A stretch of 64,000 bases of DNA, from NCBI GenBank assembly GCA_014695345.1, contig JACJOC010000012.1:248001-312000 (forward strand). Reading direction: 5' to 3'. The notes under the pieces are model-generated. The model did no database searches, was not told the DNA's origin, and was given only the letters and a program-made list of their open reading frames with translations. The stretch comes from Cyanobacteria bacterium FACHB-471 (GTDB lineage: Bacteria > Cyanobacteriota > Cyanobacteriia > Elainellales > Elainellaceae). The translations under genes were made by a program, and so were the position numbers. Shown here piece by piece: positions 24,887-58,367 of this stretch. Each line of letters starts with the position of its first letter. Position 1 is the first letter of the stretch.

Positions 24887-27586
24887 ATGGTTACAGCAGA
24901 TGCTGCAGAAATACAGGATAGTTTGGCACCACAGCCTTTTAATGGCGAAACGTCTAATAGCCCAACGTCCAGTTCAGCATCTAGACGGTTAGAAACCAAG
25001 GCAATTCAGCCAAGAGTATCTGCACCGGAAGCAGTGCAAGAATCAGGCATCCAGGAATCAAGCATTCAGGAATCAGGCATCCGGGAAACGGCCGTAGAAA
25101 AAGCGCTAAGGGAACGAGAAGCAAATCTTCTAGCTCTGATCGAAAATACGCAGGATGCGGTCTGGTCGGTCGATCGCCAGTATCAGATTGTCACGCTCAA
25201 CTCCACCTTTAAGCAACAGTTTCAGATCGTTTATGGGGTCGAGTTAGCGCTGGGTATGAATATTATCAGTTGTCTACCCGATGCCGCAAAAGCCATCTGG
25301 ATAGACTACTATGACCGGGCACTGAGGGGCGATCGCTTTGCTATTGAGCTACATGTTGATTTGCCCGACAGCCCTGCATATATTGAAGTCTCGTTTAACC
25401 CCATTATCACGAATATTGAGGAAATTACAGGCGTAGCCGTTTTTGGCAGAAACATCACTGATCGCAAGCGAGCTGAGGCAGACCTGCAACAGGCAAAAGA
25501 TCAGCTTCAGGCGGTACTGGATGCTGTCCCTGGCTGCGTTTCCTGGTTTAGCTCAGACTGCAAATACTTAGGGATCAATCGTTACCTGGCGGCCACTTTT
25601 AACGTTCGCCCAGAAGATTTTGTCGGCAGAGAATTGGGTTTTATGGAATCCAGCCCCGGATTTGCCGAGTTTGTGCAGAAGTTTATCGCCAGTTCAGTGA
25701 AGGAAAGCTCGGTAGAAATTGCATCCCGAGTTGGCGACTCGATCCGCAATTACATCGTCGTTGCCCAAAAATATTTTCAGGATCAGGCAGCCGTCTTCGT
25801 TGGGCTGGACATTACTGACCGAATGAAGGTTGAAGAAGCGCTGCGGGAAAGCCAGGAACGTTACGCTCTGGCAGTGCGCGGTGCCAACGACGGGCTGTGG
25901 GATTGGAATCTGAGAACCAACGAAATTTACTTTTCTCCCCGTTGGCGGGAAATGCTGGGCTACGAGGAGGGAAAGATTGGCAACACTTTAGATGAATGGT
26001 TTAGCCGAGTTCACTCAGAAGACCTATATCGCGTTAAAACTCAACTCAATGCTCATCTAGATGGGTCAACGGTTCACTTTGAGAGCGAGTACCGAATGCG
26101 GCATCGAGACGGCTCCTACCGCTGGTTGCTGAACCGAGGACTGGCAGTGCGAGATGAGAATGGCAAAGCCTGCCGCATGGCGGGATCGCAGACTGACATC
26201 ACCAAACGCCGCCAAGCCGAAGAGCAGCTTTTGCATGATGCCCTGCATGACGTGCTCACAGGACTACCTAATCGCGCTTTGTTTATCGATCGCCTCTCTC
26301 AAGCAATTGAGCGAACTAGACGCCCCCAGAGCTACCGATTTGCGGTGCTGTTTCTAGATGTCGATCGGTTTAAGGTGATCAATGACAGCCTCGGTCATGT
26401 AGTTGGGGATCAGCTTTTGGTGGCGATCGCCCAACGTCTGCAAACTTGCCTTCGCATCGGCGATACAATCGCTCGGCTAGGAGGAGACGAGTTCACAATT
26501 TTGATGGAAGACATCAGGAGCCACACCGACAGCACTCAACTGGCAGAGCGAATCCATCAAGAATTCTTGCTGCCATTCAATCTGAATGGGCAAGAGGTCT
26601 TTACTACCGTCAGCATTGGCATTGCTCTAAGTGAATCGGGGGGCGATCGCCCTGAAGACTTGCTGCGAAATGCAGACACCGCCATGTACCGCGCCAAAGT
26701 TTTAGGGCGGGCTCGCCACGAGATATTTGATGCAGCAATGCACGCCCGCGCTGTTGCTCTATTGCAGCTAGAGACTGACCTGAGACGGGCCGTTTCAACC
26801 CTGCAAGTAGGTTTGACCAGTCAAGAATTTCAACTGCGCTATCAGCCCATCGTCTCGCTAGAAACTTCCGAAATCATTGGGTTTGAGGCGTTGGTTCGCT
26901 GGCAGCACCCAGAGCGTGGCTGGATTTCTCCCGGTGATTTTATCCCGGTTGCCGAAGATACGGGTTTGGTGCTCCCGCTAGGACAGTGGATTTTGGCGGA
27001 GGCGTGTCGTCAGCTTCGGGAATGGCAGCTTCAGTTTCCTCACAGCAGAGCGTTATCCGTTAGCGTGAATCTTTCGACTAAGCAGTTTGCCCAACCCCAA
27101 CTGATTCAGCAAATCAGCCAGTTACTTCAGCAATATCAGATAGAACCTCATCGCCTGAAAATTGAGATTACCGAAAGCGCCATTATGGAAAATACTGAGT
27201 CCGCAACGGCTCTACTAGAGCAGCTTAAGGCGCTGGGGCTGCAACTGATGATTGACGACTTTGGCACAGGCTATTCGTCCCTAAGCTATTTGCATCAGTT
27301 CCCGATTGATACGGTCAAAATTGACCAGTCCTTTGTCGGCAGAATGGGAGCCGATGACACAGAAGATGAGGGATCTGAAATTGTGCGAGCGATTGTCACG
27401 CTGGCTCACACCCTAAACATGAATGTGGTTGCTGAAGGAATTGAAACCGCTGAACAAGTTTCACAACTTAAAACCCTAAAAGCCGAATATGGGCAAGGCT
27501 ATTTTTTTGCGAAACCTTTGAGTAGTGAAGAAGCTGGCATTCTGATCAAGACTGATCCCCAACGCTTAAACGAGGACGTCGCCTAG
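24887..27586 (+). CDS. PAS-PAS-PAS-GGDEF-EAL cyclic-di-GMP enzyme
   Basis: The 899-residue soluble protein has three PAS/PAC units (about 68-195, 200-318, 322-447), a diguanylate cyclase domain with intact RLGGDEF (532-536), and an EAL phosphodiesterase domain with GFEALVRWQHP (Glu667), ENTESA and DDFGTGYSSL. Both catalytic signatures look complete, so it could make or degrade c-di-GMP, or be tuned by PAS input. Near residues 50-66 there is a short tandem repeat of E-S-G/S-I-Q units. It ends in a four-base overlap with the permease gene on the other strand. Confidence 0.95.
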   Translation: MVTADAAEIQDSLAPQPFNGETSNSPTSSSASRRLETKAIQPRVSAPEAVQESGIQESSIQESGIRETAVEKALREREANLLALIENTQDAVWSVDRQYQIVTLNSTFKQQFQIVYGVELALGMNIISCLPDAAKAIWIDYYDRALRGDRFAIELHVDLPDSPAYIEVSFNPIITNIEEITGVAVFGRNITDRKRAEADLQQAKDQLQAVLDAVPGCVSWFSSDCKYLGINRYLAATFNVRPEDFVGRELGFMESSPGFAEFVQKFIASSVKESSVEIASRVGDSIRNYIVVAQKYFQDQAAVFVGLDITDRMKVEEALRESQERYALAVRGANDGLWDWNLRTNEIYFSPRWREMLGYEEGKIGNTLDEWFSRVHSEDLYRVKTQLNAHLDGSTVHFESEYRMRHRDGSYRWLLNRGLAVRDENGKACRMAGSQTDITKRRQAEEQLLHDALHDVLTGLPNRALFIDRLSQAIERTRRPQSYRFAVLFLDVDRFKVINDSLGHVVGDQLLVAIAQRLQTCLRIGDTIARLGGDEFTILMEDIRSHTDSTQLAERIHQEFLLPFNLNGQEVFTTVSIGIALSESGGDRPEDLLRNADTAMYRAKVLGRARHEIFDAAMHARAVALLQLETDLRRAVSTLQVGLTSQEFQLRYQPIVSLETSEIIGFEALVRWQHPERGWISPGDFIPVAEDTGLVLPLGQWILAEACRQLREWQLQFPHSRALSVSVNLSTKQFAQPQLIQQISQLLQQYQIEPHRLKIEITESAIMENTESATALLEQLKALGLQLMIDDFGTGYSSLSYLHQFPIDTVKIDQSFVGRMGADDTEDEGSEIVRAIVTLAHTLNMNVVAEGIETAEQVSQLKTLKAEYGQGYFFAKPLSSEEAGILIKTDPQRLNEDVA

Positions 27587-51430: not shown

Positions 51431-52405
51431 GTGAAATTTGCGTTTATTATTGACCCGATTCAAAAGCTTGATCCTGGTCACGACACCAGCGTGGCGCTCA
51501 TGGAGGCAGCACAAATGCTGGGTCATGAGGTTTGGGTGACGGAGGCAAGATTGCTCAGCGTGACGGGTGGCAAGGCCTGGGCTGAGCTACAGCAAGTGCA
51601 GATCACTCCGGCGCAGTTGGTCGATGGACACTGGGTAGTGGAGTCAAACTGGTATCAGCTTGGCGATCGCACCCTCCTCTGCCTGGAGGAAATGGACGCC
51701 GTGTTCATGCGAACTGACCCGCCCGTGAATGTGCCCTACCTCTACGCCACCTACATTCTGGACTATGTGAATCCGGCAAAAACGCTGGTGGTTAATTCGC
51801 CTGCTGGACTGCGCCTGGCGAATGAAAAAATGTATGCGCTTCAGTTTGCTGATGTGATCCCGAAGACGATCGTGAGTCAAGATAAGCGGGTGATCCGGCA
51901 GTTTATTGAGCAACAGGGTGCGGCGGTAATTAAACCGCTGGGTGGTAAAGGCGGCGAGGGAATTTTGCTGATCGAACCAGGCGATCGCAACTTCAATTCT
52001 CTGGTCGAAATCAGCACCCAAAACCAGTACCCGATCATGGTGCAAACGTTTTTGCCAGAAGCCAAAGACGGTGACAAACGGGTAATTCTGCTAAACGGTG
52101 AGCCCATTGGTGCCGTGAATCGGATTCCGACGGGCAGTGAGTTTCGCGGCAACATGGCAGTGGGCGGACGGGTGGCTGCGGCAGAGGTTACTGAGCGCGA
52201 TCGCCAAATTTGTAGCCTCTTAGCCCCTACGTTGCGGCGAGATGGCTTAATCTTTGTGGGAATTGATGTGATTGGGGGCTACCTAACTGAAGTAAATGTC
52301 ACTAGCCCAACCGGAATCCGCGAAGTGGATCGGCTCAACAATGTGCGACTGGGTGCACAGGTGATTCGTTGGGTGGAACAGCAACCTGCAATCCGTTCAG
52401 TCTGA
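51431..52405 (+). CDS. gshB: Glutathione synthetase
   Basis: The 324-residue ATP-grasp enzyme joins gamma-glutamylcysteine and glycine. It has FIIDPIQKLDPGHDTSVALM at the N-terminus, VFMRTDPPVN, GKGGEGI (glycine-rich ATP loop), QTFLPEAKDGDKRVILLNGEP and VNVTSPTGIREVDRL at the C-terminus. The start is GTG at 51431. The downstream NMT1-type binding protein is separated by about 125 nt containing an NtcA-like site, so it is not in this operon. Confidence 0.96.
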   Translation: MKFAFIIDPIQKLDPGHDTSVALMEAAQMLGHEVWVTEARLLSVTGGKAWAELQQVQITPAQLVDGHWVVESNWYQLGDRTLLCLEEMDAVFMRTDPPVNVPYLYATYILDYVNPAKTLVVNSPAGLRLANEKMYALQFADVIPKTIVSQDKRVIRQFIEQQGAAVIKPLGGKGGEGILLIEPGDRNFNSLVEISTQNQYPIMVQTFLPEAKDGDKRVILLNGEPIGAVNRIPTGSEFRGNMAVGGRVAAAEVTERDRQICSLLAPTLRRDGLIFVGIDVIGGYLTEVNVTSPTGIREVDRLNNVRLGAQVIRWVEQQPAIRSV

Positions 52406-52424: not shown

Positions 52425-52456
52425 CCCGTATCTGAAAGACCCGTATCTAAAAATAC
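52425..52456 (+). promoter_or_regulatory. NtcA-type palindrome and 9-bp direct repeat upstream of transporter operon
   Basis: An exact GTA-N8-TAC palindrome (52443-52456) overlaps the second copy of a 9-bp direct repeat CCCGTATCT (52425-52433 and 52440-52448, 15 nt apart). The palindrome is 74-87 nt upstream of the binding-protein ATG. A TAGCTT at 52484-52489 could be a -10 box, but the spacing (27 nt) exceeds the usual 22-23 nt for NtcA activation. No thiamine-riboswitch motif was seen. Confidence 0.45.
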
Positions 52457-52529
52457 AGTTTCCCTCTGGTCTGTTTGTTTTAGTAGCTTCAGAGCGAGGG
52501 ATCTCATTTCCAACTCAAAGGAGACTTGC

Positions 52530-53645
52530 ATGAGCCGACTGCGCTATCCAAAGCCTGGAATTTATGGGATCAACCGGGGGATCAACCGGCGTAAATTTAT
52601 TCAATATGGAGCAATGGCAGTGGGGGCAGGCGTGGTTGCTTCCTGCACTGGCAATCAGCCCGCCGCTGAAGAAGATGAAGCAGCAGAATCTTCCGCCGCT
52701 GCCAGCCCTTCTCCTAGCGGTGAATTGACGTCCGTCACCTACGGCACCAACTGGTATGCTCAGGCAGAGCACGGCGGCTTCTATCAGGCGGTTGCTGCGG
52801 GCATTTATGAGGAGCATGGTCTGGATGTGACCATTCAAATGGGCGGTCCCCAAGTCAACGGCACGCAGCTATTGATGGGCGGTGCAGTCGATTTCTTCAT
52901 GGGCTATACGGCAGATGCGATCAAGGCGATCGAGGAAGACATCCCCAAGGTCACGGTAGCGGCGATGTTCCAAAAAGACCCGCAAATCCTGATTGCTCAC
53001 CCCGACACGGGAGCAGAATCACTGGAAGATTTAAAAGGCAGACCTGTCTTTGTTTCGGCAGCAGCAAACACCACCTACTGGCCGTTCCTGGTTGCACGCT
53101 ACGGCTTCACCGAAGACCAAAAGCGTCCCTATAACTTCAACCCCGGTCCGTTCTTAGCAGACAAGCAAGCGGCTCAGCAGGGTTACCTCAGTTCTGAACC
53201 GCTGGCGATCTCAAAGGAGGGCGGCTTTGAGCCAGTCGTATTCCTACTAGCAGATTACGGCTACGATCCTTATTCCACCACAATCGAAACGCGGCGAGAA
53301 TTGGTTGAATCTGACCCAGATCTAGTGCAGCGGTTTGTTGATGCGTCGATCAAGGGCTGGTATAGCTACTTTGAAGATCCGGCTCCGGGAAATGAGCTAA
53401 TCAAGCAAGCTAACCCTGAAATGACCGACGAACAAATTGCCTACGGCATCGAAAAAATGCAGGAATACGGCATTGCCATTTCTGGTGAGGCAGAAATGCA
53501 AGGCATTGGCGCAATGACCGATGGGCGCTGGAAGTCTTTCTTTGACACGATGGCAGAGGCAGGCGTGTTTGATCCTAATACGGATTACAAGCAGGCTTAC
53601 ACACTGGAGTTTGTCAACAAAGGCGCAGAAGCTTATCAGGCTTAA
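52530..53645 (+). CDS. NMT1/THI5-like ABC substrate-binding lipoprotein (Tat-exported)
   Basis: The ATG at 52530 follows AAAGGAG at 7 nt; a TTG-started frame extends to 52413. The N-terminus has a twin-arginine motif NRRKFIQYG and a lipobox ASC near residue 40, so it is a Tat-exported lipoprotein. The mature domain is NMT1/THI5-like (YGTNWYAQAEHGGFYQAVAAGIYEEHGLDVTIQMGGPQVNG), a class that binds pyrimidine precursors, sulfonates or similar small molecules. It opens a five-gene operon with ATPase, permease, deaminase and oxidase, which favours a nitrogenous ligand. Confidence 0.88.
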   Translation: MSRLRYPKPGIYGINRGINRRKFIQYGAMAVGAGVVASCTGNQPAAEEDEAAESSAAASPSPSGELTSVTYGTNWYAQAEHGGFYQAVAAGIYEEHGLDVTIQMGGPQVNGTQLLMGGAVDFFMGYTADAIKAIEEDIPKVTVAAMFQKDPQILIAHPDTGAESLEDLKGRPVFVSAAANTTYWPFLVARYGFTEDQKRPYNFNPGPFLADKQAAQQGYLSSEPLAISKEGGFEPVVFLLADYGYDPYSTTIETRRELVESDPDLVQRFVDASIKGWYSYFEDPAPGNELIKQANPEMTDEQIAYGIEKMQEYGIAISGEAEMQGIGAMTDGRWKSFFDTMAEAGVFDPNTDYKQAYTLEFVNKGAEAYQA

Positions 53646-53695
53646 GGCTATTTGGGTTGGTACACGCACACTGCACTTTATTTGCACAAACGCTA

Positions 53696-54496
53696 ATGAC
53701 TCATCCTGCCATTACGCTCAGCGACATCACCAAGGTCTATTCCAATGGCACCGTGGCGCTACAGCACCTCAATTTGGCGATTGAGGAAGGACAGTTTATC
53801 AGCCTGGTTGGACCGTCTGGCTGCGGTAAAAGTACTGTACTGCGAATGATTGCAGGTTTAGGCAAGATGAGTTCGGGACAGATCGAATGGAGTAGTGGTC
53901 ATTCCCAGCGCCAGCTTGCGTTTGTGTTTCAGGAAGCTGCTCTAATGCCCTGGGCAACGGTGCAAGACAATGTGCGATTGCCCTTGAAACTGGCAGGGGT
54001 TTCCTATTCTGCATCTAGGACGGCTGTAGCTGAAGCGCTGGAACTGGTTGACCTAACTGGCTTTGAGAAGTGTTACCCGCGTGAACTGTCAGGCGGGATG
54101 AAGATGAGGGTATCGATCGCCCGTGCCCTGGTGACAAAGCCAGAAGTATTGCTGATGGATGAGCCGTTTGGGGCGCTGGATGAGATGACTCGCAGCAGGC
54201 TCAACAGCGACTTGCTCGCTCTGTGGAGCCAAAAGCAATGGACGGTGATATTTGTCACCCACAACATTTATGAGGCAGTATACCTGTCGAATCGGGTAAT
54301 CGTGATGGCAGCACGTCCAGGGCGAGTTGTGGCAGATGTGCCGATCGCCGCTCCCTATCCCCGCACCGAAGAGTTTCGCCTCTCCCCCCTCTACGGTGAA
54401 TACTGCCGCCAGATTTCTTCTGCCCTTTCCCAGGCTGCGAGTGGGCAAGATGTGGCGATCGCCAACCCTGACCGACGAGCTGCAGAATATGTCTAG
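53696..54496 (+). CDS. ABC transporter ATPase (NitT/TauT/ThiZ-type)
   Basis: The 266-residue protein (ATG 53696) has Walker A GPSGCGKST, Q-loop AFVFQEAALMPW, signature LSGGMKMRVSIARAL and Walker B LLMDEPFGALD, as in the nitrate/taurine/thiamine-precursor family. It energises import together with the neighbouring binding protein and permease. A TTG-started longer frame from 53657 is less likely. Confidence 0.93.
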   Translation: MTHPAITLSDITKVYSNGTVALQHLNLAIEEGQFISLVGPSGCGKSTVLRMIAGLGKMSSGQIEWSSGHSQRQLAFVFQEAALMPWATVQDNVRLPLKLAGVSYSASRTAVAEALELVDLTGFEKCYPRELSGGMKMRVSIARALVTKPEVLLMDEPFGALDEMTRSRLNSDLLALWSQKQWTVIFVTHNIYEAVYLSNRVIVMAARPGRVVADVPIAAPYPRTEEFRLSPLYGEYCRQISSALSQAASGQDVAIANPDRRAAEYV

Positions 54497-54590
54497 TGGT
54501 AGATAGTAGACCGCAAGCAGGAAGACTGTCTTAACCCCTTACCTGCTAACTATCCTTCATCCTTCTTCCGTCCCCCTTTCTCCTTCCTCC

Positions 54591-55556
54591 ATGCTGCTGC
54601 GCCAACTGACTGCCCTAATTCTGGAACTGCAAAATTTGTTGATGGGCCGCATCAACTTCACGGCAGGGAGCGATCGCCCCAATGGATCGATCCCTGCCCT
54701 TGCGGCTAAACCGATTGGCAAACTGGGAACTGCGGGGTTGTCAGGGATGCGGCAATTGCTTTCGGCCGATTTGCTGGCTCCGGTAGGGGTGGGCTTTTTG
54801 GTGCTGGCATTCTGGGAAATTGCGGTGCGAATGAGTGGCGTTCAGCCTTACCTGCTCCCAGGTCCGCTGTTGGTGCTGCAAACGCTAATTAGCGAATGGG
54901 GAACGCTGTTTCCGTCGTTGGTGATCACGTTTCAAATTACCCTGGCTGCTTTCGTTGTAGCGGTGATTTCTGGACTGTTGGTGTCGGTTCTGTTTACCCA
55001 GAGCAAGTGGATTGAGCGCAGCTTTTTTCCCTACGCGGTGATCTTGCAAACGACCCCGGTGGTGGCGATCGCCCCACTGATCATTATTTGGGTCAGGCAG
55101 GTTGTACCGGGAGACAACAGCACCTTTGTGGCACTGGTAATCTGCGCTTGGATTGTGGCGCTGTTCCCCATCATCGCTAATACGACCTTGGGTTTGAATA
55201 GCGCTGACCACAACCTGATCAACCTGTTCCAGCTTTACAAAGCTTCCCGCTGGCAGACGTTGCTGCATCTGCGCTTGCCCAGCGCTATGCCCTACTTTTT
55301 GGGTGGATTGCGAATCAGCGGCGGGCTGGCTTTGATCGGCGCAGTGGTGGCAGAATTCGTTGCCGGAACGGGCGGTACCAAATCGGGGATCGCCTACCAA
55401 ATCCTGATTTCCAGCTACAATCTACAGATTCCCCGGATGTTTGCTGCCCTACTGATGACTACTGGGTTGGGCGTGCTCATCTTTGTGCTGCTGACGCTGC
55501 TTTCTGACTTTTTGCTTGGCAAGTGGCACGAAAGCGCTGTTCGACGAGAAAATTGA
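54591..55556 (+). CDS. ABC transporter permease (NitT/TauT/ThiX-type)
   Basis: The 321-residue protein has about six membrane helices from residue 60 on (LLAPVGVGFLVLAFWEIAV, TFQITLAAFVVAVISGLLVSVLF, FFPYAVILQTTPVVAIAPLIIIW) and the EAA-like loop ASRWQTLLHLRLPSAMPYFLGGLRI. About 55 residues precede the first helix, with a possible shorter start. It is the membrane part of the transporter, 95 nt after the ATPase and 13 nt before the deaminase gene. Confidence 0.92.
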   Translation: MLLRQLTALILELQNLLMGRINFTAGSDRPNGSIPALAAKPIGKLGTAGLSGMRQLLSADLLAPVGVGFLVLAFWEIAVRMSGVQPYLLPGPLLVLQTLISEWGTLFPSLVITFQITLAAFVVAVISGLLVSVLFTQSKWIERSFFPYAVILQTTPVVAIAPLIIIWVRQVVPGDNSTFVALVICAWIVALFPIIANTTLGLNSADHNLINLFQLYKASRWQTLLHLRLPSAMPYFLGGLRISGGLALIGAVVAEFVAGTGGTKSGIAYQILISSYNLQIPRMFAALLMTTGLGVLIFVLLTLLSDFLLGKWHESAVRREN

Positions 55557-55569
55557 GCATCTACCTGCG

Positions 55570-56958
55570 ATGAAGATCCCTGGAGCGTCCCATTACTGGC
55601 TGAAGAATGCCCATGTCCCATTTACCCTGATTCAGCTAGCCGATGGGGAAACGATTGGCGAATCGGAATTACTGAATCCAATTGAGCCGCTGCTGCTGCT
55701 AGACATTGAGATTCGGGATGGAGTGATTCATTCGTTACAACAATCTGCAACCGTTCCAGATGAAATTCCCTCAGTCGATTTGCAGCGAGGAATGGTCTGG
55801 CCCTGCTTTGTGGATTTGCACACGCATTTAGATAAAGGGCATACCTGGGGGCGATCGCCCAACCTGGCAGGCACGTTTGATAGCGCCTTAGCTTTAGTAA
55901 GTAGCGATCGCGAGAAACACTGGGATGCCGAGGATGTTTATCGCCGTATGGAGTTTGGGCTGAAGTGCAGCTATGCTCACGGCACTCGTGCCCTGCGGAC
56001 TCACATCGACTCTGCTAACGGACAAGCGAAAATCAGTCTGGAGGTCTTCAAAGCACTAAAAGCGGAATGGCAAGGTCGGCTAGAACTTCAGGCTGTTTCC
56101 CTGGTGCCGTTGGACTATTTCATGGGCGCAGAGGGAGAAGTATTGGCTGACCAGATCGCTGAAGCGGGAGGCTGTTTGGGCGGTTTGCCGCTGATGAACG
56201 AAGATTTAGAGCGGCAGATCGATCGGGTTTTTGAGTTAGCGGGCGATCGCCAGCTCAACCTCGACTTTCACACCGATGAAAGCGGCAACCCCGCCGACAT
56301 TACCCTGCGCCACATTGCAGCGGCAACCCTGCGCCACGAATTCACCGGGCGGGTAGTTTGTGGTCACTGTTGTAGCCTCTCGGTACAACCTGCCGAGGAA
56401 GTTCAGAAAACGATTGATCTAGTCAAGCAGGCGCGAATCGGAATCGTTAGCTTGCCGATGTGTAACCTTTACCTGCAAGACCGCAACCAGCAAACTTCTC
56501 AGCATTTCCTGTATGCCCCGCTAGAGCAGCAGCTTGCATTTAACTCCAAGTTTCCCAGTCGCACTCCGCGCTGGCGAGGGGTAACGCTCCTGCATGAGCT
56601 AAAGCACTCTGGCGTACCCACAGCGGTTGCCAGCGATAACTGCCGCGACCCATTTCACGCGTTTGGGGATCACGACGTGCTGGAGGTATTTACCCAGTCT
56701 GCCAAGATTGCTCATTTTAATGCAGCCTATGGTGATTGGTGTACAGCGGTAACGACCACCCCTGCAGACCTGATGGGTTTCCCAACCATTGGGCGAATTG
56801 GAACTGGACTGCCCGCCGATTTGATTCTCTTTAGAGGGCGTTACTTTAGTGAATTGCTGTCACGATCGCAGCATGATCGAGTCGTGTTACGACAGGGAAA
56901 GGCGATCGATACCGCTCTTCCTGACTATGCCGAACTGGATGACTTGCTGGTGAAATGA
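55570..56958 (+). CDS. Cytosine-deaminase-type amidohydrolase
   Basis: From the ATG at 55570 the 462-residue enzyme shows the metal-dependent amidohydrolase set: DLHTHLDKGHTW (metal His), RTHIDSA, LDFHTDESGNP, VCGHCCSLS and ASDNCRDPF (metal Asp). This pattern fits the CodA/cytosine deaminase branch, which hydrolyses amino groups from pyrimidines or related rings. The exact substrate cannot be told, but with the transporter it suggests uptake and deamination of an imported N-heterocycle. Start follows the permease stop by 13 nt. Confidence 0.88.
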   Translation: MKIPGASHYWLKNAHVPFTLIQLADGETIGESELLNPIEPLLLLDIEIRDGVIHSLQQSATVPDEIPSVDLQRGMVWPCFVDLHTHLDKGHTWGRSPNLAGTFDSALALVSSDREKHWDAEDVYRRMEFGLKCSYAHGTRALRTHIDSANGQAKISLEVFKALKAEWQGRLELQAVSLVPLDYFMGAEGEVLADQIAEAGGCLGGLPLMNEDLERQIDRVFELAGDRQLNLDFHTDESGNPADITLRHIAAATLRHEFTGRVVCGHCCSLSVQPAEEVQKTIDLVKQARIGIVSLPMCNLYLQDRNQQTSQHFLYAPLEQQLAFNSKFPSRTPRWRGVTLLHELKHSGVPTAVASDNCRDPFHAFGDHDVLEVFTQSAKIAHFNAAYGDWCTAVTTTPADLMGFPTIGRIGTGLPADLILFRGRYFSELLSRSQHDRVVLRQGKAIDTALPDYAELDDLLVK

Positions 56959-57005
56959 CAGGACACTTAATTTAACTTGACTTTGTATATTAGGAGGCTA
57001 GCGAG

Positions 57006-58367
57006 ATGACTGCAACGGCTGCAACAGGGCGATCGCTTGATTGGGATGCGTTAACCAACGCCCTCAGCGGCATTGAAATAATTCGAGAACCGACTCAAGT
57101 AGCCAAGCTTTCGCAAGACTACTACAGCTTTAGCCCGCTGTTGCAGGCACAGTTGACCGGCAAAGTTGGCGATCTAGTAGTTCGCCCTGTTAACGAAGCC
57201 GAAGTGCTGCGCGTGGCGGAGGTTTGCGTGAAATTCAAACTACCGTTGACGGTTCGTGGAGCAGGCACCGGAAACTATGGGCAGTGCGTCCCCTTAGAAG
57301 GCGGCGTAATTCTTGATCTGAGCCGAATGCAGGCGGTTCGCTGGCTAAAACCTGGACTCGCATGCGTTGAACCTGGCGTAAAACTAGCCGCACTTGACAA
57401 ACAGGCACGGGAAACCGGCTGGGAAATTCGTATGACCCCTTCCACTTATCGGACTGCGACAATTGGGGGCTTTATTGGGGGTGGTAGTGGTGGCATCGGC
57501 TCGATCACCTATGGGCAACTGCGCGATCGCGGCAACCTGCACGCCGTTCGGGTCGTAACAATGGAAGACCAGCCTCGTGTGATCGAGCTACGCGGCGACG
57601 ATGTACAGAAAGTGAACCATGCCTATGGTACCAACGGCATTATTACCGAGCTAGAAATTCCCCTTGGTCCGGCTTATCCCTGGGCAGAATACATCGTCAG
57701 CTTCTCCGATTTTATGAGCGCGGCCCGATTCGGTCAGGCGCTAGGCGACTCAGACGGCATCATTAAAAAATTAATCTGCATTTGTGCTGCCCCAATTCCT
57801 AACTACTTTGCTGCGCTGCGGAGCCATATTCCCGAAAATAGCCACTGTGCCCTGCTAGTCGTCTCAGAATCCTGCCGGGAACCCCTGACTGGACTAGTGC
57901 GGGAGTATGGTGGTGCATTCTGTTATGAGAAAGCCGCCAAGGATGCCAGCAAAGGGGTGACGCTGGTGGAATATTCCTGGAATCACACCACCCTCCACGC
58001 TCGTAGCGTTGACCCGTCTCTCACCTATTTGCAAACGCTGTTTCCGCCAGATAAGCAGCTCAAACTGGTAGAGCAGATGTATCACCACTTTGGCGACGAA
58101 GCAATGATGCATCTAGAATTCATCCGGGTGAATGGCTCCGTGCTTCCGGCGGCACTGCAAATTATTCGCTATTCCACTGCTGAACGGCTTCAAGAAATTA
58201 TTCAATATCACGAGGAGCAGGGTGCGTTTATTGCCAATCCGCATACCTACGTTTTGGAAGATGGTGGCAGGAAAACCATTGATCCGGTGCAGCTTAAGTT
58301 TAAGGAAATGGTCGATCCTTACGGTTTGCTGAATCCGGGCAAAATGCGGGCATGGTTAGAGCGGTAG
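57006..58367 (+). CDS. FAD-linked oxidase (PCMH-type)
   Basis: The 453-residue flavoprotein has the PCMH-type FAD-binding pattern VRGAGTGNYGQCVPLEGGVILDLSRM and IGGFIGGGSGGIGSITYGQLRDRG, like GlcD and other FAD-linked oxidases. Its C-terminus ends NPGKMRAW as these enzymes often do. Strong Shine-Dalgarno AGGAGG is 9 nt before the ATG. It is the last gene of the transporter-deaminase operon and may act on the deaminated product; the substrate is not known. Confidence 0.88.
   Translation: MTATAATGRSLDWDALTNALSGIEIIREPTQVAKLSQDYYSFSPLLQAQLTGKVGDLVVRPVNEAEVLRVAEVCVKFKLPLTVRGAGTGNYGQCVPLEGGVILDLSRMQAVRWLKPGLACVEPGVKLAALDKQARETGWEIRMTPSTYRTATIGGFIGGGSGGIGSITYGQLRDRGNLHAVRVVTMEDQPRVIELRGDDVQKVNHAYGTNGIITELEIPLGPAYPWAEYIVSFSDFMSAARFGQALGDSDGIIKKLICICAAPIPNYFAALRSHIPENSHCALLVVSESCREPLTGLVREYGGAFCYEKAAKDASKGVTLVEYSWNHTTLHARSVDPSLTYLQTLFPPDKQLKLVEQMYHHFGDEAMMHLEFIRVNGSVLPAALQIIRYSTAERLQEIIQYHEEQGAFIANPHTYVLEDGGRKTIDPVQLKFKEMVDPYGLLNPGKMRAWLER

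Follow-up and report, generated by a model that had tools for sequence, protein, structure and literature searches.

The window analysed here is a stretch of 64,000 nucleotides from Cyanobacteria bacterium FACHB-471 (contig JACJOC010000012.1, positions 248,001 to 312,000). A preliminary description of this DNA had proposed a five-gene import-and-breakdown operon, in which a deaminase-type enzyme is followed by a flavin enzyme. All five genes were found, co-directional on the forward strand at positions 52530-58367. They encode a receptor, an ATPase, a permease, a CodA-like amidohydrolase (hereafter AMH) and, last, a FAD enzyme (hereafter FADOX). The intergenic gaps are 50, 94, 13 and 47 bases, each below 100. 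The operon is real, and its parts are of known kinds. The upstream neighbour, gshB, also adjoins the operon in many relatives and is outside the pathway. The features of the locus are as follows.

51431-52405, forward strand: gshB, glutathione synthase (TIGR01380, 434.2 bits against a cut-off of 299.05)
52425-52433, forward strand: CCCGTATCT, copy 1 of a direct repeat
52440-52448, forward strand: CCCGTATCT, copy 2 of the direct repeat, overlapping the NtcA-type site
52443-52456, forward strand: NtcA-type site GTATCTAAAAATAC (GTA-N8-TAC), a pattern that also precedes the receptor gene in relatives
52484-52489, forward strand: TAGCTT, putative -10 box of the TAN3T type, aligned with the -10 box of genome G002 (locus L086)
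52517-52523, forward strand: AAAGGAG, Shine-Dalgarno sequence of the receptor gene
52530-53645, forward strand: receptor, Tat-type lipoprotein, NMT1/THI5-like substrate-binding protein of 371 residues (PF09084, 101.9 bits)
53696-54496, forward strand: ABC transporter ATPase of 266 residues (PF00005)
54591-55556, forward strand: ABC transporter permease of 321 residues (PF00528)
55570-56958, forward strand: AMH, CodA-like amidohydrolase of 462 residues (NF005759, CodA fold)
56992-56997, forward strand: AGGAGG, Shine-Dalgarno sequence of the FADOX gene
57006-58367, forward strand: FADOX, FAD-binding enzyme of 453 residues, a relative of PDB 6v42

The encoded proteins and their closest relatives

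The receptor carries a twin-arginine motif (RRKFIQ) and a lipobox (VASC) in addition to its NMT1 domain, in agreement with the Tat lipoprotein first described. Across 37 receptor rows, the RRxF pattern and the lipobox pattern were each found in 29, and the receptor of the window has both. Its nearest PDB matches are 4nmy (52.9 bits), the ligand of which we take to be thiamine, and 3ix1 (48.3 bits). The likeness to the ThiY-type receptors represented by 3ix1 is that of an NMT1-type receptor; the score, however, is only 48.3 bits, and the window has no TPP riboswitch. At a threshold of E 1e-60, a receptor orthologue was found in 26 genomes, 20 of which have FADOX and 13 AMH, and it was missing from 40 of the 53 AMH genomes in the cyanobacterial set. 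The importer is therefore an optional part.

AMH passes the NCBI family NF005759 (PRK07583, 'cytosine deaminase') with 649.5 bits against a cut-off of 403. Its predicted model (pLDDT 84) has the same fold as E. coli CodA (Z 38.4), but the two proteins are only 22% identical. The candidate metal residues, H84, H86, H234, H266 and D356, match those of a plasmid-borne CodA. In CodA the glutamine of the FPQ motif serves in cytosine binding. This glutamine is replaced in the AMH of the window (P180), and none of the 31 AMH-type rows, FADOX-linked or not, has a glutamine after FP, whereas this residue is retained in two paralogues encoded by the window genome. A plain cytosine deaminase is for this reason disfavoured.

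We propose instead that AMH is a pterin 2-amino deaminase. According to PMC9513972, a Variovorax amidohydrolase has been proven to deaminate folic acid, and relatives of this enzyme (Variovorax F1 PDA) have an endoribonuclease gene downstream, an arrangement similar to the Pantoea-type loci with RidA considered below. Like AMH, the pterin deaminases Arad3529 and F1 PDA (EC 3.5.4.11) are of the amidohydrolase type, a likeness drawn from their description; F1 PDA has 399 residues against 462 in AMH.

FADOX matches PDB 6v42 with 444.9 bits, the next PDB match reaching 56.4 bits. The predicted model (pLDDT 74) superimposes on 6v42 with a Z of 35.4 (2.7 Å, 410 residues aligned, 43% identity), against a Z of 24.9 and 17% identity for the next-best structure. 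In sequence, FADOX aligns with the flavin oxygenase of 6v42/6v43 over its whole length at 49% identity. The motifs TGNYGQ and WNHTT are common to both and are invariant across all 34 rows compared. In the tree, 6v42 falls in a fully supported set with six FADOX rows (L034, L035, L110, L111, L112 and L115), all of which come from loci of the type substrate-binding protein, ATPase, permease, AMH, FADOX; for 6v42 itself, no locus was found. The identity of 6v42 to the Rhizobium and Agrobacterium rows is 63-65%.

The title of the 6v42 entry reads 'Crystal structure of the flavin oxygenase with cofactor bound involved in folate catabolism'. The link to folate rests on this title of a PDB entry, and no paper containing the code 6v42 or 6v43 was found in the literature searched. 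The FAD oxidase of the preliminary description, which left the substrate of the route unassigned, is better described as kin to a flavin oxygenase that is named for folate catabolism, and because of this kinship a pterin- or folate-derived class of substrate can be proposed. At 49% identity, judging from the sequences, the substrate of FADOX may differ from that of 6v42. The setting also differs: the FADOX gene of the window is part of an operon of a cyanobacterium that is preceded by an NtcA-type site, and neither a RidA nor a reductase gene adjoins it.

Related loci and the creatininase-family hydrolase

The same type of operon was found outside the cyanobacteria. On Rhizobium plasmids the five genes stand in the same order as in the window, and the encoded proteins are 56-57% (receptor), 45-46% (AMH) and 47% (FADOX) identical to those of the window. 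Twelve annotated proteobacterial loci with FADOX were available from 18 plasmid regions, after the region without annotation (L106) and those with no FADOX listed (L113, L114, L238, L240 and L242) had been set aside. All 12 contain amidohydrolase and ABC transporter genes together with a creatininase-family and a RidA-family gene, and 11 contain an NAD(P)H- or PDR/VanB-type oxidoreductase; since the loci were picked by their FADOX or amidohydrolase matches, only the other genes count as a finding. These loci, from Rhizobium, Agrobacterium, Pantoea, Rahnella and roseobacters, thus share importer, amidohydrolase and FADOX with the window. In these loci the creatininase and RidA genes are linked to the rest, in most cases along with a reductase gene and frequently with a regulator gene of the LysR or TetR type, whereas in the window genome the creatininase gene is unlinked and the promoter is of the NtcA type.

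At E 1e-60, 46 of 60 relatives have both AMH and FADOX, three AMH only, five FADOX only and six neither. At 80 loci found through AMH, FADOX was visible in 15 and a permease in 27, the stretch examined being short for many contigs. Clustering of 23 FADOX loci gave no general neighbour. A biotin-like gene group, judged by eye, recurs in four of these 23 loci.

The genome of the window has four creatininase-family genes. One of them (G000:C104:232402-233241), located away from the operon, encodes a protein 70-82% identical to copies that lie 2-3 kb from AMH or FADOX at four other cyanobacterial loci (L148, L155, L175 and L208), and 50% identical to the creatininase of the Pantoea operon. Among 386 cyanobacterial genomes, this creatininase was found in 70 and FADOX in 65, and 63 have both (thresholds of E 1e-70 for creatininase, 1e-50 for AMH and FADOX and 1e-60 for the receptor; other thresholds would shift the counts). 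AMH was found in 53 genomes, 46 of which have FADOX and 47 creatininase, and creatininase is also absent from six of the seven AMH genomes without FADOX. Nineteen of the 65 FADOX genomes have no AMH, and 17 of these belong to family f29. In this family, creatininase accompanies FADOX in 15 of the 17 genomes, AMH in none, and no genome has creatininase without FADOX.

Fisher's test of creatininase against FADOX over the 386 genomes gave p = 1e-61, a value that is too small because of shared ancestry. A control creatininase paralogue was found in only one of 319 genomes, the window's own. Most of the gene pairs are split between contigs or widely separated, so that their co-occurrence points to one pathway. 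The unlinked creatininase-family hydrolase is probably a member of the route. The two-step route of the preliminary description would therefore have at least three steps; its deaminase and flavin enzyme were retained.

A more distant family (f2) was counted apart from the 65 FADOX genomes because its FADOX-like proteins are only 37-47% identical. These genomes, of 1.6-3.7 Mb, are probably marine picocyanobacteria, and 57 of the 386 genomes are f2 genomes with a FADOX-like gene. In 10 of 12 f2 loci this gene adjoins an AMH-like gene with folC close by; in the other two the pair was not shown by ORF calling. One AMH-like protein of the family scored 255 bits on NF005759, below the cut-off of 403. 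The f2 loci examined gave no match to the importer of the window, and no f2 genome is among those with a receptor orthologue (E 1e-60). The proximity of folC is a hint and not a proof, because the f2 loci share one ancestral arrangement.

The promoter in the window and in relatives

The class II consensus of NtcA is GTA-N8-TAC followed by a TAN3T-type -10 box at a spacing of 20-24, usually 22-23. NtcA control had been proposed from the single exact site upstream of the operon. The window, however, contains four GTA-N8-TAC boxes against 4.31 expected. Because this count equals chance, the lone site is no evidence for NtcA, and the argument from it was rejected.

Comparison between species restored the proposal on other grounds. 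The scan covered 20 different promoters of cyanobacterial receptor genes, that of the window included, and left out five non-cyanobacterial rows, rows with fewer than 150 upstream bases and duplicates. The full motif (GTA-N8-TAC with TAN3T at 20-24) was present in nine of the 20 against 0.06 expected, the latter being the mean of first-order Markov copies, with a maximum of 1 in 300 rounds. The bare box was present in 11, including the window's, against 0.61 expected. Since the rows are related, the nine promoters with the full motif are not nine independent events. In the window the spacing from the site to the -10 box is 27, outside the range of 20-24, against 23 in G002 of the same genus, the window having a 4-base insertion. 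By these sequence comparisons, NtcA control is likely for the lineage. The response of this strain itself is less sure, because its spacing is four bases longer than in G002.

Other genes of the related loci were scanned in the same manner. GTA-N8-TAC was found upstream of a TPR-type gene in eight of 10 loci; one of the ten belongs to family f26 and the other nine to f29. The TPR-type gene was called by Pfam in three of the ten and by size and place in the rest. Among 25 upstream regions of 14 loci, the bare box occurred in 10 (1.8 expected) and the full motif in three (0.2 expected). In the upstream regions of a set of 30 FADOX genes, which included those of the window, G001, G002 and G059, where AMH precedes FADOX, the bare box was at the chance level (two, with 2.3 expected), and the full motif occurred in two (0.25 expected, up to two in shuffles). 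For AMH genes without an adjacent permease, the corresponding numbers were seven of 54 for the bare box (2.23 expected, reached in four of 300 shuffles) and one of 54 for the full motif (0.26 expected). No NtcA box was found in the 10 AMH-like promoters of family f2 that were scanned, nor upstream of the creatininase-family gene of the window genome.

The direct repeat, which had been described together with the NtcA-type site, is present as the site is. CCCGTATCT occurs three times in the window against 0.18 expected, one copy lying at 26956 on the opposite strand. The repeat is, however, not kept in G002, where copy 2 reads CTCGTATCT. Copy 1 is absent from that promoter, the sole same-genus promoter compared, and the repeat was rejected as a regulatory element. 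Consensus scans of the window gave two promoter sites against 3.8 in shuffles and six terminator sites against 6.3 in shuffles.

Proposed pathway and competing explanations

We consider it very probable that the operon encodes one pathway for the breakdown of an N-heterocycle with its own importer. The observed basis is the gene content and order, the kinship of FADOX to 6v42, the proteobacterial loci with creatininase and RidA, the co-occurrence of creatininase in cyanobacteria and the NtcA-type promoters in relatives. In the proposed pathway, the lipoprotein receptor would bind a pterin or another breakdown product of folate and pass it to the ABC importer. AMH would remove the exocyclic 2-amino group as ammonia to give a lumazine, the ring of which FADOX would oxygenate. 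The creatininase-family hydrolase would then open or trim the oxidised ring, and the released ammonia would enter assimilation. We infer the substrate class, the order of the steps, the bonds cut and the purpose from relatives. A pterin- or folate-derived substrate is somewhat favoured, and the purpose of the operon is probably the release of nitrogen.

The same proteins might act on a different ring scavenged for nitrogen, such as a purine or pyrimidine in methylated or oxidised form, a hydantoin or a creatinine-like compound. The combination of deaminase, flavin enzyme, RidA and reductase resembles the logic of the Rut breakdown of uracil. A creatininase-family hydrolase would suit any cyclic amide, and AMH shares its fold with CodA and AtzC, two enzymes that act on other N-heterocycles. 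However, the only solved structure close to FADOX carries folate catabolism in its title, and AMH lacks the CodA glutamine, so that we regard another ring as rather unlikely. Another explanation would be the use of cytosine, AMH being a true cytosine deaminase and FADOX an unrelated neighbour. The high score on NF005759 is in line with cytosine use, but this explanation is highly improbable in view of the low identity to E. coli CodA, the absent glutamine, the co-occurrence of FADOX with AMH and their operon linkage in several lineages, and the presence in the window genome of a paralogue that groups with the plasmid-borne CodA. A ThiY-like receptor, a 4-amino deaminase and a hydroxymethyl oxidase might also serve to salvage or degrade HMP, the pyrimidine of thiamine. 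This would fit the CodA fold of AMH and the receptor, which is of the NMT1/THI5 type and has the formyl-aminopyrimidine-binding protein 3ix1 among the solved proteins nearest to it. The preliminary description had argued against a thiamine role from the lack of a riboswitch. This argument was borne out: no Rfam family reached its gathering score in the window, hence no TPP riboswitch, the operon contains no thiamine gene, and the annotations of the 12 FADOX loci list none (the plasmid gene tables being incomplete). Together with the nitrogen-type promoter in relatives and the kinship of FADOX to an enzyme of folate catabolism, these facts make the thiamine pyrimidine an improbable substrate.

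A further explanation keeps the pterin substrate and changes the purpose. AMH and FADOX may remove the cell's own pterins and oxidised folates, the importer recapturing what leaks out. The many AMH genomes without a receptor orthologue would be explained in this way, as would the f2 pair near folC with no importer match. Cyanobacteria make pterin glycosides at high levels (PMC13259868), which is in line with such a need for clean-up. On the other hand, relatives of the window have a nitrogen-type promoter and a dedicated importer with these genes. We therefore judge metabolite clean-up to be unlikely as the purpose, although this judgement does not add up with the others, since clean-up shares its substrate with the proposed pterin pathway and both can hold.

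Returning to pterin breakdown for nitrogen, no publication that describes NtcA-type import and breakdown of pterins by cyanobacteria was found among the matches listed, mostly outside subscription papers. It is possible, as a tentative generalisation, that cyanobacteria scavenge pterin nitrogen, the operon then being a first candidate for a pterin importer coupled to ring breakdown under NtcA, and that the folC-linked pair is a reduced, two-enzyme form of it that serves as a core step of pterin or folate recycling in small-genome, probably marine, cyanobacteria. If the operon works as proposed, it would supply a specific importer and a route of breakdown for pterins, with nitrogen as the reason, and it would point to a role for two genes that are kept as a pair in cyanobacteria with small genomes.

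Promoter spacing in the window

Relative to the promoter of the same-genus genome G002 (locus L086), the window promoter has a 4-base insertion within 52470-52483, in the spacer that separates the -10 element from the NtcA-type site.

Relatives of the amidohydrolase and the FAD enzyme

In the small-genome cyanobacterial family f2, a gene like that of the CodA-like amidohydrolase (AMH) adjoins one like that of the FAD enzyme (FADOX), with folC close by, in 10 of the 12 loci read; argD and miaB, and mostly murA, share this stretch. These ten loci are L225, L125, L226-L229, L231, L233, L236 and L237.

L225 5759-9630 and L125 6285-10142: FADOX-like and AMH-like pair, family f2
L240 8938-10269: relative of the Pantoea operon amidohydrolase, plasmid pADP-1
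L114 4132-14900: AMH relative near genes for an ABC importer, isopenicillin-N-synthase-family oxygenase, YcaO and TfuA-like genes, Rhizobium leguminosarum plasmid
L234 6692-12554: diverged FADOX, ABC transporter genes and 282-aa protein, genome G055

On the atrazine plasmid pADP-1, the amidohydrolase adjoins a BMP-type ABC importer, and atzD, atzE and atzG are adjacent to them. FADOX was not among the genes listed for the Rhizobium region. The FADOX of G055 is diverged (45%) and lies near other ABC transporter genes; the 282-aa protein encoded nearby matched no NCBIfam model at E 1e-10.

Importer and receptor genes without the amidohydrolase

Genomes of another cyanobacterial family, f29, and genome G063 carry a TPR-type gene, the receptor and FADOX without AMH (L206, L207, L208 and L213), the receptor of L213 being a fragment. 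The ATPase and permease are also present at L206-L208. This gene set is an importer-oxygenase variant.

L206 5200-9827: TPR-type gene, receptor, FADOX, ATPase and permease; AMH absent
L212 7442-8527: receptor orthologue without AMH or FADOX

Six sampled genomes (G054, G099, G121, G169, G186 and G429) have a receptor orthologue but neither AMH nor FADOX at the thresholds used (receptor, E 1e-60; AMH and FADOX, E 1e-50). The receptor may therefore serve additional routes beyond the AMH/FADOX route.
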